The translations under genes and the position numbers were made by a program. Below the pieces are notes generated by a model that was not told the DNA's origin, searched no databases, and saw nothing but the letters and a program-made list of their open reading frames with translations. Below, one piece after another: positions 15,322 through 20,854 of a stretch of DNA of 64,000 nt; position 1 is the first letter of the stretch; each line of letters opens with the position of its first letter. Source of the stretch: Candidatus Melainabacteria bacterium (GTDB lineage: Bacteria > Cyanobacteriota > Vampirovibrionia > Obscuribacterales > Obscuribacteraceae); the NCBI GenBank assembly GCA_027451745.1, contig DAIDIP010000002.1:62001-126000 (forward strand), in the 5' to 3' direction.

Positions 15322-15864
15322 TTTGTCCGATTTTTCATTTTTTAAAAGTTGAAGTGACCTAAAACGGCATGTAACTAGCTATTGTAAACCTTTTTCAATT
15401 ACAAGTAATCATGTCATCATTTTGTCATGCTCAGAAGAGCATGATTTCAAGCAAGCTGACATTGCTAAGATAATTGGACACGAATCGCATATCTCAGCAT
15501 TTTTGCTGGCAGACGAAATTTGAGCAAAGCAGAAGCAATAAAGCTAGGAAATTATTTTGCTGTTGATCCGTTGGCATTTTTGCCATCGATATTGAAAAAG
15601 GTGAGCTAAAAATTTGAAATTGTCAGATTAAGTACTTTCTAGAATAGTTCAGTTCAGCAGAAAATTTTTTAGTGCTTCTTGATAAAGAACTAACAGATTA
15701 ATTCTGCGATTTAACAATGCTTTTGATGTTGACCGGACGGGATACAAGGGAATGTGCTTAGTGCGCGGTGGCGAGAACTAGAGGCGAGAGAAGAGGTGTA
15801 TGAATTCATGTTATCATCATTGGAAAGAGCTTAGCGAGTCTTTCTATTACGCCAATTGATAGGT
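15322..15864. other. intergenic region with an antitoxin relic
   Basis: Apart from the HTH relic listed separately, this stretch contains a perfect 8-bp hairpin (TCATGCTC, loop AGAA) at 15425-15444 that overlaps the relic's first codons. From 15640 to 15860 no frame looks coding. Confidence 0.5.
15434..15609 (+). pseudogene. HigA/XRE-type antitoxin remnant, truncated and frameshifted
   Basis: The first frame reads EEHDFKQADIAKIIGHESHISAFL, helices 1-3 of an XRE helix-turn-helix. One base further on, the match continues in another frame as AGRRNLSKAEAIKLGNYFAVDPLAFLPSI and ends at TAA 15607-15609. This is the standard HigA antitoxin pattern (KQ-DLA-LIG---HVSEIL-GKR-LS---A-KLG--F-VSP--FL). The N-terminus and any toxin partner are missing, and the T-run at the junction suggests a one-base loss. 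A dead toxin-antitoxin remnant. Confidence 0.72.
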
Positions 15865-16953
15865 ATGTATAACGTTGTGAAGGCAGAGGGTGGTAACGTT
15901 AAGACACGATCACCAGCCCTTATTGCACTTGGCGCAGCGTTTCTGTTTGGAGCAAGTACGCCAGCTATAAAACTCTTAGTTGGACAAGTACATCCTCAAT
16001 TGCTTGCCGGACTTTTGTATTTAGGCTCGGGAATGGGACTTTTACTTATAGGTTTGTTTACTAAAGCTTTTACTGCTGGATCTAAACACAAAGTCAAATT
16101 GCAATCATCAGATTTACTATGGTTGACCAGTGCTATTGTATTTGGTGGCATAGTTGGACCGATTTTGCTGATGCTGGGCTTGTGTAATACACGTGGAGGA
16201 GAAGCCTCACTTTTACTAAATATGGAGTCGGTTTTTACAGCAGTACTAGCCTGGTTTATATTTAAGGAAAATTTTGACAGGCGCATTTTTATTGGCATGC
16301 TTGCGATTGTTGTTGGCAGCATATTTTTAACTTGGCAGCCAAGCGCAATGTTCAAAATATCTGTAGGATCTTTGGCAATAATGGGTGCTTGTCTGGGGTG
16401 GGCATTGGATAATAATTTTACACGAAATATATCATCCATAGATCCTATGCGAATTGCTGCTATAAAAGGTTTGGTGGCTGGATTAATAAACTGTCTAATT
16501 GCACTTGCCTATGGAAATCATTTACCAAGCGTTGCAATTCTTGCTTTGGTCGCTGCGATAGGTTTGTTAGGGTATGGAGTGAGTCTAGTTTTGTTTATAA
16601 AAGCATTACGCTATTTAGGTGCATCACGCACAAGTGCTTATTTTTCCACGGCGCCTTTTGTTGGTGCGATCCTATCAATATTATTTTTACATGAGCCAGT
16701 AACCACCAATTTATCAATCGCTTCTTGTTTTATGATATTTGGGGTGTGGTTGCATCTAACAGAAGTACATGAACATGAGCACGTGCATACTGAAGAGGAG
16801 CATGAGCATTTACATTGGCACGACGAGCATCATGGTCATGAGCATGCTCCGGGTATTATATTGGATGAACCACATTCTCATTGGCACAAGCACATGACTA
16901 TTAAACATTCACATCCACATTATCCCGATCAAGAGCATAGGCATGTCCATTAG
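15865..16953 (+). CDS. EamA/DMT-family permease with His-rich C-terminal tail
   Basis: Ten hydrophobic helices in two repeated halves of the EamA (drug/metabolite transporter) type: AAFLFGASTPAIKLLVG opens the first, the glycine-rich LGWALDNNFTRNISSI opens the second, and GASRTSAYFSTAPFVGAIL carries the usual late motif. The last ~60 residues are exceptional: about 22 histidines in HEHEHVH, HDEHHGHEH and HSHWHKH clusters. Such tails bind Ni2+, Zn2+ or Co2+ in other transporters, so a metal or metal-chelate exporter or a metal-sensing tail is likely. The frame also opens at TTG 15856; ATG 15865 is used. No clear operon partner. Confidence 0.88.
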   Translation: MYNVVKAEGGNVKTRSPALIALGAAFLFGASTPAIKLLVGQVHPQLLAGLLYLGSGMGLLLIGLFTKAFTAGSKHKVKLQSSDLLWLTSAIVFGGIVGPILLMLGLCNTRGGEASLLLNMESVFTAVLAWFIFKENFDRRIFIGMLAIVVGSIFLTWQPSAMFKISVGSLAIMGACLGWALDNNFTRNISSIDPMRIAAIKGLVAGLINCLIALAYGNHLPSVAILALVAAIGLLGYGVSLVLFIKALRYLGASRTSAYFSTAPFVGAILSILFLHEPVTTNLSIASCFMIFGVWLHLTEVHEHEHVHTEEEHEHLHWHDEHHGHEHAPGIILDEPHSHWHKHMTIKHSHPHYPDQEHRHVH

Positions 16954-17100: not shown

Positions 17101-18339
17101 CTAATTCGTATTTGGTACGATCACGATATCCACTGAACTTTTAGTGCCATAATTTGTTTGCAATAAATCTTTTTGAAAAATAATAGCGATTTTATCTTTC
17201 AGAATTACCGCGTCGGGGAAAATACTATTACCCTTAAACAAGTTTATGACAGCAGAAAAGTTTTTTCCGCTGTCATCGGAAATTTTTGCGTATAGACCCG
17301 GCGCGTCTTTTATACTGTGAGTCCTTGACCACGCTATTATTATGTGGCTGTTTCTATCAGCAGCAGCGGTGGGTTGACTATAAAAGTCCGCTGTATCAGA
17401 AATATTAATTGGTTCAGAAAAATCAGTTGCATTACTATTAATAGCGCACCGAATATTTGTCTTGTTTTCAGTTGTAAAATTATCTGTGTCAGACCAAACA
17501 ATATAAATAGTGTCTTTTTGCCCCACAGTAATTCTTGGAAAATTTACAAGGCTCAAAGACTTATTTATTTTGACTGGCTTAGTCCAAATGTTTGATCGTT
17601 TTGCATAGTAGATGCTCAAGTTAGTTTGATTTGACACACCACCTAACCAGACTAAATGTACAGATCCTTTTGAATCAATGATGATTTGTGGAGAAGCTGA
17701 AAAGGACTGACTGTCACTAACATTTTCAATTTGAAATGACTGATCTTTGCCCCATGTTTTACCGCCGTCAGTAGAATAAGAATAATAAATATCAGCGTTT
17801 CTTGATCCTTCAATTGTTTCCTGCCATGCTACATGAATCTCGCTATTTGATCCAGTTGCTAAGGCCGGTGTGATAGAATTACCTTTAGTTCTTGAAATAT
17901 TGGCAGGTTCGCTCCACGTTCTACCATTATCGTTTGAACGAGTAAAAAATATATCGCTTTGTCCAAAGACGACATCTGACCAAACAATATCTATAGCACC
18001 GCTAGTTTCTGTAGCTATACGCGCGCCGGGCGTTAACATACCTAAGCTACGAGCAGGAATTCTTGGTATTACAATTGGTGGTGTCCAAGTTTTACCTCCA
18101 TCAATGCTGCCTGAATAACATATGTCTGGCGGTTTTGGATCTCTTCTAAGGTCGCAATTTTTGTTCTCTCTGATAAATGCCGCGTGTAGATATCCTTTAT
18201 TGTCTACAGCGATACTCGGTCTGAATCCTTCTGCTATCTCATGTGCTTCAATTGATATCGGCGATTCTTTGCTAAAGGCACTAGGAGGAAAACACATTAG
18301 CACAGTTAGGCAATACATCATAGCAATTAAGTTCTGCAT
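17101..18339 (-). CDS. secreted Asp-box (BNR) beta-propeller protein, sialidase-like
   Basis: A Sec signal peptide (LIAMMYCLTVLMCFPPSAFS) precedes a sialidase-fold propeller with at least three Asp boxes: SGSIDGGKTWTPP, TRSNDNGRTWSEP and SYSTDGGKTWGK, plus a fourth degenerate one (KISDDSGKNFSA). Each blade carries an IH(V/L)VW or similar strand. I see no FRIP motif or clear catalytic triad, so sialidase activity should not be assumed; it may be a sugar-binding propeller. Its ATG abuts the TAA of the upstream gene (TAAATG), so it is the third gene of a tight operon with the two paralogous secreted proteins. Confidence 0.82.
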   Translation of the reverse strand: MQNLIAMMYCLTVLMCFPPSAFSKESPISIEAHEIAEGFRPSIAVDNKGYLHAAFIRENKNCDLRRDPKPPDICYSGSIDGGKTWTPPIVIPRIPARSLGMLTPGARIATETSGAIDIVWSDVVFGQSDIFFTRSNDNGRTWSEPANISRTKGNSITPALATGSNSEIHVAWQETIEGSRNADIYYSYSTDGGKTWGKDQSFQIENVSDSQSFSASPQIIIDSKGSVHLVWLGGVSNQTNLSIYYAKRSNIWTKPVKINKSLSLVNFPRITVGQKDTIYIVWSDTDNFTTENKTNIRCAINSNATDFSEPINISDTADFYSQPTAAADRNSHIIIAWSRTHSIKDAPGLYAKISDDSGKNFSAVINLFKGNSIFPDAVILKDKIAIIFQKDLLQTNYGTKSSVDIVIVPNTN

Positions 18340-19584
18340 TTATTTCTTTTGCTCCTTATTAGTAAACGTTCCAATAAAGGTGACAGATTCAAAATCAGGC
18401 AAATTTGGAACACCCATGTAGTGTCTTTGTTTATCGATTGCTAAATTACGTTCATCCACTGACAATTTAGGCGGAAATATGTTTGGGAAAATTATAGCGG
18501 GATGCCTATCTAGTTTGTTTATAGAATCTGCCAAGATTTTTGCTACTGAATTATCAGGAAATTCCCAATCAATGATTTCTGACTTTACTTTACCATTGTT
18601 ATTTATCGTAATTGATATATTTACTTTACCTGGAGACCAGTTATTAGCAGGGGTCTCATCATGTATGCTATTAGTCTTTTGCCAATTCATGTGATTAGCC
18701 GTAGTACCAGAGGTGATGATATAGTTTGTTCCTAAAGTCACTACCTTGCCTGGAGCAGGTTGTGTACGTTGAAGCTTCCACACATCATACAAGGCATCTA
18801 GTACACCACTTACCCAGCAACACCAGTTTGGATAAGGAAATTTTTGCATGGCATATTTATTGTCTCCCCACATACTCCAGCCATTATAGAAAGGATGTTC
18901 TCTTGTAATTTCCTCTACTAGCTCCGTGGAAAAATTATGCAAATAAACTTCTGAATTGACATCGCCCTTATTGATACCATACGTTGAAGGAGATGATGAA
19001 ACCGGTAGATTACCAGGGAAATGAAAAGCGCCTGATAAAAATTGTTTGCCATTTGGAAGCTGCGTTTCTATTGCATTTCCTGCTGCTATGATCAAGAACC
19101 AAGGTGCACTACTGCCCCGCTCTGGACTCTTATATAATTCAATGTATTCTACAGATGGATCATCAACTTGGCAAAGATTATTATGTACTCGCTCTATAGT
19201 CCACAAGGTTTTATTATCAATTGTTTTTCCTTGAGGACCAGCTTGTTGTACTAGCTTGATTTTTAAATAAGGCATGTTTTTTTCATTGGTAGGTACAGTA
19301 TTTTGTTGCTCGCCACGCCCGATATAAATAGTGTCACTGCCAGGTGCTACATAAATATTTTTGAAGAGCTGCAATTTGTAACCAACCATTTCATCTAAAT
19401 AAGATGGTTCTTTAATATCTAGTTTCACAGTTTGTGCAGTATTTGATGCATTCTTATTACTAGGGATTGATTGGGCTATAGTAGGTATGCTCATAACTGT
19501 GCATGAAATGAATACTAAAGAAAGTATGTTGGTCGGAGCTTTCAAATACGAAATATGCCTAACACATTGCAATTTATGAGACAT
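18340..19584 (-). CDS. secreted protein of unknown family (tandem paralogue B)
   Basis: I do not recognise the family. A signal-peptide-like N-terminus (ILSLVFISCTVMSIPTIAQS) is followed by a conserved block shared with the next gene upstream: MVGYKLQLFKNIYV, then TIDNKTLWTIERVHNNLC and VDDPSVEYIELY. The last ~120 residues (VNISITINNNGKVKSEIIDWEFP, then INKLDRHPAIIFP) resemble the beta-strand layout of TonB/TolA C-terminal domains, where an NG-V turn is typical; this is a weak inference. ATG 19584 follows TTG 19587 in the same frame. Spacing to its neighbours is 0-4 bases, so the three genes are translated from one message. Confidence 0.75.
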   Translation of the reverse strand: MSHKLQCVRHISYLKAPTNILSLVFISCTVMSIPTIAQSIPSNKNASNTAQTVKLDIKEPSYLDEMVGYKLQLFKNIYVAPGSDTIYIGRGEQQNTVPTNEKNMPYLKIKLVQQAGPQGKTIDNKTLWTIERVHNNLCQVDDPSVEYIELYKSPERGSSAPWFLIIAAGNAIETQLPNGKQFLSGAFHFPGNLPVSSSPSTYGINKGDVNSEVYLHNFSTELVEEITREHPFYNGWSMWGDNKYAMQKFPYPNWCCWVSGVLDALYDVWKLQRTQPAPGKVVTLGTNYIITSGTTANHMNWQKTNSIHDETPANNWSPGKVNISITINNNGKVKSEIIDWEFPDNSVAKILADSINKLDRHPAIIFPNIFPPKLSVDERNLAIDKQRHYMGVPNLPDFESVTFIGTFTNKEQKK

Positions 19585-19588
19585 CAAA

Positions 19589-20854
19589 TTATTTCCTCGT
19601 CGAGTTGTTATGGAAGGTACAAATAAAAGATACGGATTCCAAATTGGGAAGACTTGTTACCCCCATGTAATGATGTTGCTTATCGATGGCTAAGTTATAT
19701 TCATCTGCTGATAAATCACTCGGAAATATGGTAGGAAAAATTATTGCGGGATGTCGATTTAACTTGTTTATCGAAGCAACTAAAGTCTTACCGACATCTT
19801 TTGGGAATTGGCAATCAACGAGCTTTGCTTTTACTTTCCCATCTTTGTTTATCGTGACTGCAATATCTATGGTTCTCGATGGATAATTAGTGATAATGGC
19901 TATGCTATTGTATATGGTGTCACTATGCCAGCGTATGTGGCTTTTATCTTTCGGGGTAACAATAAAATTTCTTCCTAATGTAATGACTTTTCCTGGTGGA
20001 AAGGCACTTTGAAGTAGCCAAATATCTGTTAATGCTTCGGCAACGCCGTGTGTCCAGTAATACCAATTAGGATAGGGAAATTTTCTCATGTCATATTTGT
20101 TGTCTTCCCCTATGGTATAGCCGTTACTAAATGGTTTTTCCCTGCTAATTTCTTCAGAAAGTGCAATCGAAAAATCATGCAAATCTACTTGATCTGTGCT
20201 TACAGCAGTAATGGGCATGCTTTGAGAAGGACAAAAGGTGTTGAGAAGATTCATACCAGTATAAGTTAGGGGCTTTCCGTTTGGGTGTTGCACATCAATG
20301 GCGTTGCCAGCCGCCAAAATAAAGAACCAAGGTTGAGTGCTATCTTGCTGCAAATTTCTATGTAGCTCAATATAGTCTATAGAAGGATCGTCTACTATAC
20401 AAAGATTGTTATGCGCACGTTTGATTGTCCATATGGTTTTATTATCGATTAACTTGTTCTGCGAGTTTACCGGCTGGGCAAGTTGAATTTTAAGAAAAGG
20501 CATGCCCTTTCGTGCTGATTCCGGTATGGCGAGATATTGCTCTCCGAATGCTATATAGACAGCGCTATTTCCAGAAGGAATATGAATATTCTTAAATATC
20601 TGGAGCCTATAGCCAACCATATCTTCTAAACAGTTTGGCTCGTTATTATTTTTTTGAGCATCTGAACTGGATGTTGAAGAGGTGGTTGAATTTGTTGTAT
20701 TAATGCCAGAACTTTGCTTAGTGTCATTCTGTGCTTGTACAAATTTGTACGGAAACAACATTGTTGCACTGAGAGTCAATATAAAAGAGCAAATACGAAC
20801 GTGTTGCACACAATGTGCAATTCGTAACTTGTCCTTAGCCTTTGCCGTGTCCAC
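19589..20854 (-). CDS. secreted protein of unknown family (tandem paralogue A)
   Basis: First gene of the three-gene operon and a full-length paralogue of the next one: MVGYRLQIFKNIHI, NKTIWTIKRAHNNLC, VDDPSIDYIELH, FPYPNWYYW and the ending DEYNLAIDKQHHYMGV are shared. The signal sequence (ICSFILTLSATMLFPYKFVQAQ) follows a short basic N-terminus, and a Ser/Thr/Asn-rich linker comes next. The start appears to be GTG 20854. Shared residues (Trp, Tyr and Cys in WC-W/WYYW and NNLC) point to a folded extracellular domain. Function unknown; coexpression with the propeller suggests surface or carbohydrate-related work. Confidence 0.75.
   Translation of the reverse strand: MDTAKAKDKLRIAHCVQHVRICSFILTLSATMLFPYKFVQAQNDTKQSSGINTTNSTTSSTSSSDAQKNNNEPNCLEDMVGYRLQIFKNIHIPSGNSAVYIAFGEQYLAIPESARKGMPFLKIQLAQPVNSQNKLIDNKTIWTIKRAHNNLCIVDDPSIDYIELHRNLQQDSTQPWFFILAAGNAIDVQHPNGKPLTYTGMNLLNTFCPSQSMPITAVSTDQVDLHDFSIALSEEISREKPFSNGYTIGEDNKYDMRKFPYPNWYYWTHGVAEALTDIWLLQSAFPPGKVITLGRNFIVTPKDKSHIRWHSDTIYNSIAIITNYPSRTIDIAVTINKDGKVKAKLVDCQFPKDVGKTLVASINKLNRHPAIIFPTIFPSDLSADEYNLAIDKQHHYMGVTSLPNLESVSFICTFHNNSTRK

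Follow-up and report, generated by a model that had tools for sequence, protein, structure and literature searches.

Three genes lying on the minus strand at positions 20854 to 17101 of a 64,000-nucleotide stretch of DNA (the window) from an uncultured Candidatus Melainabacteria bacterium, a non-photosynthetic relative of the cyanobacteria, were found to encode two paralogous, putatively exported proteins and a likewise exported Asp-box beta-propeller. The two paralogues are best read as chimeras, in which a C-terminal part shared with a family of the surrounding lineage is joined to an N-terminal domain confined to their genus, and the operon that they form with the propeller gene is a local arrangement rather than a conserved system. 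Rather than a new machine conserved across relatives, the three-gene set looks like a modest novelty of one lineage.

All three open reading frames were confirmed, almost without gaps between them. Paralogue 1 (19589..20854, minus strand; 421 amino acids) and paralogue 2 (18340..19587, minus strand; 415 amino acids counted from a TTG codon) have the same architecture, namely a signal peptide or anchor, a linker rich in serine, threonine and asparagine, an orphan N-terminal domain (N-domain) and a TonB_2-like C-part; in paralogue 1, the low-complexity linker was read from the translation at residues 43-72 (20639..20728, minus strand). The third gene (17101..18339, minus strand) encodes the propeller, a protein of 412 amino acids with about seven repeats. 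In the longest frames, one base separates genes 1 and 2 and none separates genes 2 and 3; the ATG at 19584, with GAGGA upstream, is a likelier start for gene 2 than the TTG, and the first gap is then 4 bases. Gene 3 has its ribosome-binding site, AAGGAG, within the last part of gene 2, whose TAA is directly abutted by the ATG at 18339; for genes 2 and 3 alike, the ribosome-binding site thus overlaps the end of the gene ahead. A hydrophobic N-terminal stretch resembling a signal peptide was recognized by eye in all three proteins. The GC content of the three genes (0.37-0.39) is close to that of the window (0.39), a search of which against Rfam returned no match; the genome as a whole comprises 3.0 Mb in 76 contigs. 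On the other strand, at 15856-16953, lies a gene for an EamA-like permease, named by eye, whose very histidine-rich tail (HEHEHVHTEEEHEHLHWHDEHHGHEH...) suggests a metal-binding role.

The paralogues are 48% identical and carry the conserved blocks picked out in an earlier, sequence-only reading, whose description of three tightly packed exported proteins with junctions of 0-4 bases, two of them paralogous, is borne out by these data. A two-sequence profile run over 194 relatives recovered one copy in G001, a second genome from this genus, and two relatives of shorter length in genome G028. A scan of genome contigs with a single sequence gave no match. The G001 homologue is 40-43% identical to both paralogues, and the blocks are conserved in it, indicating that the frames are real genes and excluding chance similarity of the blocks. 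That the proteins could not be placed in a known family was also upheld, neither one matching any Pfam family at E<=10. NCBIfam and PHROG scans gave nothing usable for the paralogues, a PDB sequence search with a paralogue gave nothing credible (best 0.62) and one with the paralogue family profile gave no match, and searches of plasmids, phages and viral contigs yielded no paralogue relative.

The C-part could nevertheless be traced through the lineage. Two profiles were used to this end, one (A4) describing the C-part shared by the paralogues and the other (A7) a lineage-wide family of exported proteins. A4 found full-length relatives in G001, G028 (three copies), G015, G007 and G011, and matched in 35 of the 50 genomes of the bacterial family, mostly as short hits on the TonB-like core only; those short-core proteins that were examined are exported proteins of about 240 amino acids. 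No convincing match to A4 was obtained in 386 genomes across the phylum; the C-part family is confined to a single bacterial family of the Melainabacteria/Vampirovibrionia. Comparison of A4 with A7 by hhalign gave a probability of 95.5% over 59 columns. Among 511 open reading frames, the A7 HMM matched paralogue 1 at 9.9e-7 (residues 308-375; 19730..19933, minus strand) and other relatives at 2e-10 (best 1.8e-10) to 5e-4, while paralogue 2 was absent from its matches at E<=1 and shuffled control frames gave no match; the corresponding stretch of paralogue 2 (residues ~314-368; 18484..18648, minus strand) was delineated by alignment to the A4 domain. One lineage protein (L066) matched PF13103 TonB_2 above the cut-off, at 1.7e-5, and two others did so below it. 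The paralogues are thus tied to TonB_2/TonB_C through intermediates that match the family, and this link is transitive, as both window paralogues and seven relatives gave no direct match to Pfam TonB_2/TonB_C at E<=10. The C-part of paralogue 2 also matched, weakly, the AgmX/PglI C-terminal domain of NCBIfam (E 0.066). A low-confidence model of paralogue 2 placed strands at 321-329 and 334-341, a helix at 347-357 and a further strand at 401-409; the order of these elements in the C-part fits alpha-beta-beta-alpha-beta, but with pLDDT below 60. We conclude, by this transitive route, that the C-part is probably a TonB_2-like domain that has diverged and gained an insertion behind helix 1, in keeping with the TonB/TolA-like C-termini proposed earlier. 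The lineage protein of about 240 residues, with its conserved tryptophan-rich helix and DYIAG...W.KNDYE tail, occurs nearly once per family genome and is apparently an uncharacterised core envelope protein.

The N-domain, in contrast to this widely shared C-part, was found in this genus only: among the 50 family genomes it is present in two copies in the window and one in G001, with no credible match in the 48 others. It spans residues 73-230 of paralogue 1 (20165..20638, minus strand) and 60-222 of paralogue 2 (18922..19410, minus strand), and about 125 residues of it hold the blocks MVGY-LQ-FKNI, WTI-HNNLC and DDPS-YIEL. An alignment-based pattern scan of 84,980 species genomes returned one match, the G001 protein already known. 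No match was obtained in Pfam, NCBIfam or PHROG, nor anything credible in a PDB sequence search with the N-domain profile (best 0.11). The full-length paralogue model was poor (mean pLDDT 31.6) and too weak for a structure search, whereas an N-domain model built on three sequences had a confident block at residues 1-124 (pLDDT mostly 60-90; overall mean 66, pTM 0.65) and was mainly beta with short helices. Foldseek placed this model next to nothing in PDB and viral libraries at E<=0.001 (best query TM-score ~0.25); coming from a three-sequence model and these libraries, the result is to be taken as absence of evidence more than as proof of a new fold. It is improbable, in our estimation, that the N-domain is a new beta-rich fold arisen within one Melainabacteria genus and constitutes, by fusion to the TonB_2-like module, an envelope binding protein of a new class whose partner is a propeller of seven blades.

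Loss of the N-domain from the short G028 relatives was considered and dropped: the domain is missing from all genera but this one, making its gain within the genus the simpler course. The N-domains of the window paralogues and of the G001 protein are about equally distant from one another (46-49%), whereas for the C-parts identity is 53% between the window paralogues and 42-44% between either of them and the G001 protein. This pattern fits an origin of the pair by duplication within the genus, be it before or after the two species parted.

The propeller matched BNR_2 (8.6e-12) and BNR_4 (4.7e-11) in Pfam, and its nearest PDB sequences are solved sialidases (6e-7). It has four Asp boxes, at residues 78, 135, 189 and 354, and repeats of the form [IVL]x[IVA][VAI][WF] at 51, 116, 168, 278, 333 and 384, with VHLVW at ~226 (read by eye); the repeat spacing suggests about seven blades. 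The protein thus has the BNR/Asp-box propeller that is characteristic of GH33 membership. GH33 sialidases have six blades, and the repeat count indicates that the protein is probably no GH33 sialidase. The PDB alignment covers propeller residues 39-220 only, within which the FR-P arginine and one aspartate align; the other positions expected of a GH33 active site, which comprises an arginine triad, a Glu and a Tyr, would lie beyond the end of the alignment. A non-enzymatic binding propeller is, on these features, more likely than a sialidase.

The survey of gene neighbourhoods, which had been expected to reveal a fixed association of the paralogues with a propeller, did not bear it out. No propeller was present near paralogue relatives at any of 7 loci in 5 genomes (8-18 kb of context each, some reaching contig ends), and no paralogue relative near propeller relatives at any of 13 loci (6-14 kb of context). 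The order of the three genes is not kept in relatives, the same-genus genome included, an outcome that the sequence-only reading had itself named as refuting its proposal. In G001, the paralogue homologue lies on contig C4 and two propellers lie on C55 and C7; this genome is 71% complete, but the homologue has ample flanking sequence on its 124-kb contig, and an assembly gap does not account for the lack of a propeller beside it. Genes flanking the operon match different G001 contigs, and the region is therefore not syntenic. At one propeller locus of the same-genus genome (L026:4148-7595, plus strand), a gene for a porin-like outer-membrane protein and one for a small exported protein precede the propeller gene. 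In G028 (L061:1-5737, minus strand), a gene for a large glycine/serine-rich, filamentous-haemagglutinin-like repeat protein adjoins a paralogue relative.

The reading that we hold on balance to be probable is that the paralogues are exported envelope proteins in which a TonB_2/TolA-like C-domain serves for docking and the N-domain for binding, that they were duplicated in tandem, and that a binding propeller is co-translated with them. Each paralogue would start with a signal peptide or an anchor in the membrane, followed by a flexible linker and by the beta-rich domain, which the genus either evolved or acquired; the C-terminal domain would be of the alpha/beta type seen in TonB_2/TolA, a domain that the lineage has multiplied in many exported proteins. 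The C-domain may dock to another envelope protein and the N-domain may bind a ligand or partner. The genome encodes six proteins that score above the TonB_2 cut-off and two copies of ExbD, in keeping with this reading; against it, neither ExbB/ExbD nor any other Ton/Tol component was seen beside the operon. Within the genus, the pair would have come about through a tandem duplication or through divergence; the downstream propeller would most likely be a co-translated, non-enzymatic binding protein of the same compartment. What suggests co-function with the propeller is a single circumstance, their adjacency in one genome.

It is conceivable, though we think it rather doubtful, that the propeller gene came to lie downstream by chance rearrangement, leaving the two paralogues as the sole functional unit. 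In all other genomes, relatives of the propeller and of the paralogues are separate, and the scattering of the flanking genes' matches over G001 contigs points the same way; the zero-gap junction and a good ribosome-binding site within gene 2, on the other hand, suggest co-translation. A role of the paralogues as genuine energy transducers of the TonB/TolA type, acting with ExbB/ExbD and with the propeller as cargo or receptor partner, is unlikely. The TonB_2-like C-domain, the N-terminal hydrophobic segment, which could be an anchor, and the presence of ExbD in the genome would accord with such a role; however, ExbD is encoded on contigs other than that of the operon (C32 and C16), and the paralogues lack a proline-rich spacer, a folded domain of ~125 residues taking the place of the long TonB/TolA spacer. 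On C32 (G000:C32:10727-12194; L086, L082), ExbD and a strong TonB_2 match (E 9.2e-15) are ~0.8 kb apart, and this pair probably represents the true Ton/Tol system of the organism. Since ExbD occurs elsewhere, in one case close to such a TonB_2 gene, there is no need for the paralogues to transduce energy, and a canonical TonB system was rejected on these grounds. Least probable is the earlier suggestion that the three genes make up a new kind of conserved unit for binding or processing carbohydrates at the surface: the close packing of the operon, its internal ribosome-binding sites and the kinship of the propeller to PDB sialidases would agree with it, but the neighbourhood counts, the ~seven repeats and the PDB match that ends before the expected later catalytic residues speak against such a unit, the last two also against an active sialidase, and a sialidase operon was rejected. 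Inspection by eye of the open reading frames in the 14-24.5 kb stretch revealed no carbohydrate-active genes, and nothing points to carbohydrate processing apart from the sialidase-type homology of the propeller.

On the preferred reading, of docking and binding proteins with a co-translated propeller, the unplaced part of the paralogues narrows to one genus-limited domain of ~125 residues, the rest being a TonB_2-like family expanded in the lineage. This expansion, seen as short core matches in a majority of the 50 genomes of the family, may be of wider interest than the operon.

Compared with known systems, the propeller resembles GH33-type sialidases and BNR_2 (PF13088; e.g. PDB 4q6k) in its Asp boxes and blade repeats and in the alignment of its FR-P to the FRIP motif, and departs from them in its repeat number and unaligned later catalytic region. 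The paralogues resemble PF13103 TonB_2 and PF03544 TonB_C in being exported proteins whose core comprises a hydrophobic strand, a second strand and a helix followed by HPxxxFP, with strand-strand-helix-strand predicted, at low confidence, to follow a helix rich in tryptophan; they differ in the long insertion between the first helix and first strand, in the want of a direct Pfam match and of an ExbBD neighbour, and in the orphan N-domain that replaces the proline-rich spacer. The lineage TonB_2 protein of ~240 residues (G000:C15, L066:3796-4506) has a homologous core and comes from the same bacterial family, but is devoid of the N-domain, ends in another C-terminal tail (DYIAG..W.KNDYE) and is present at about one per genome.
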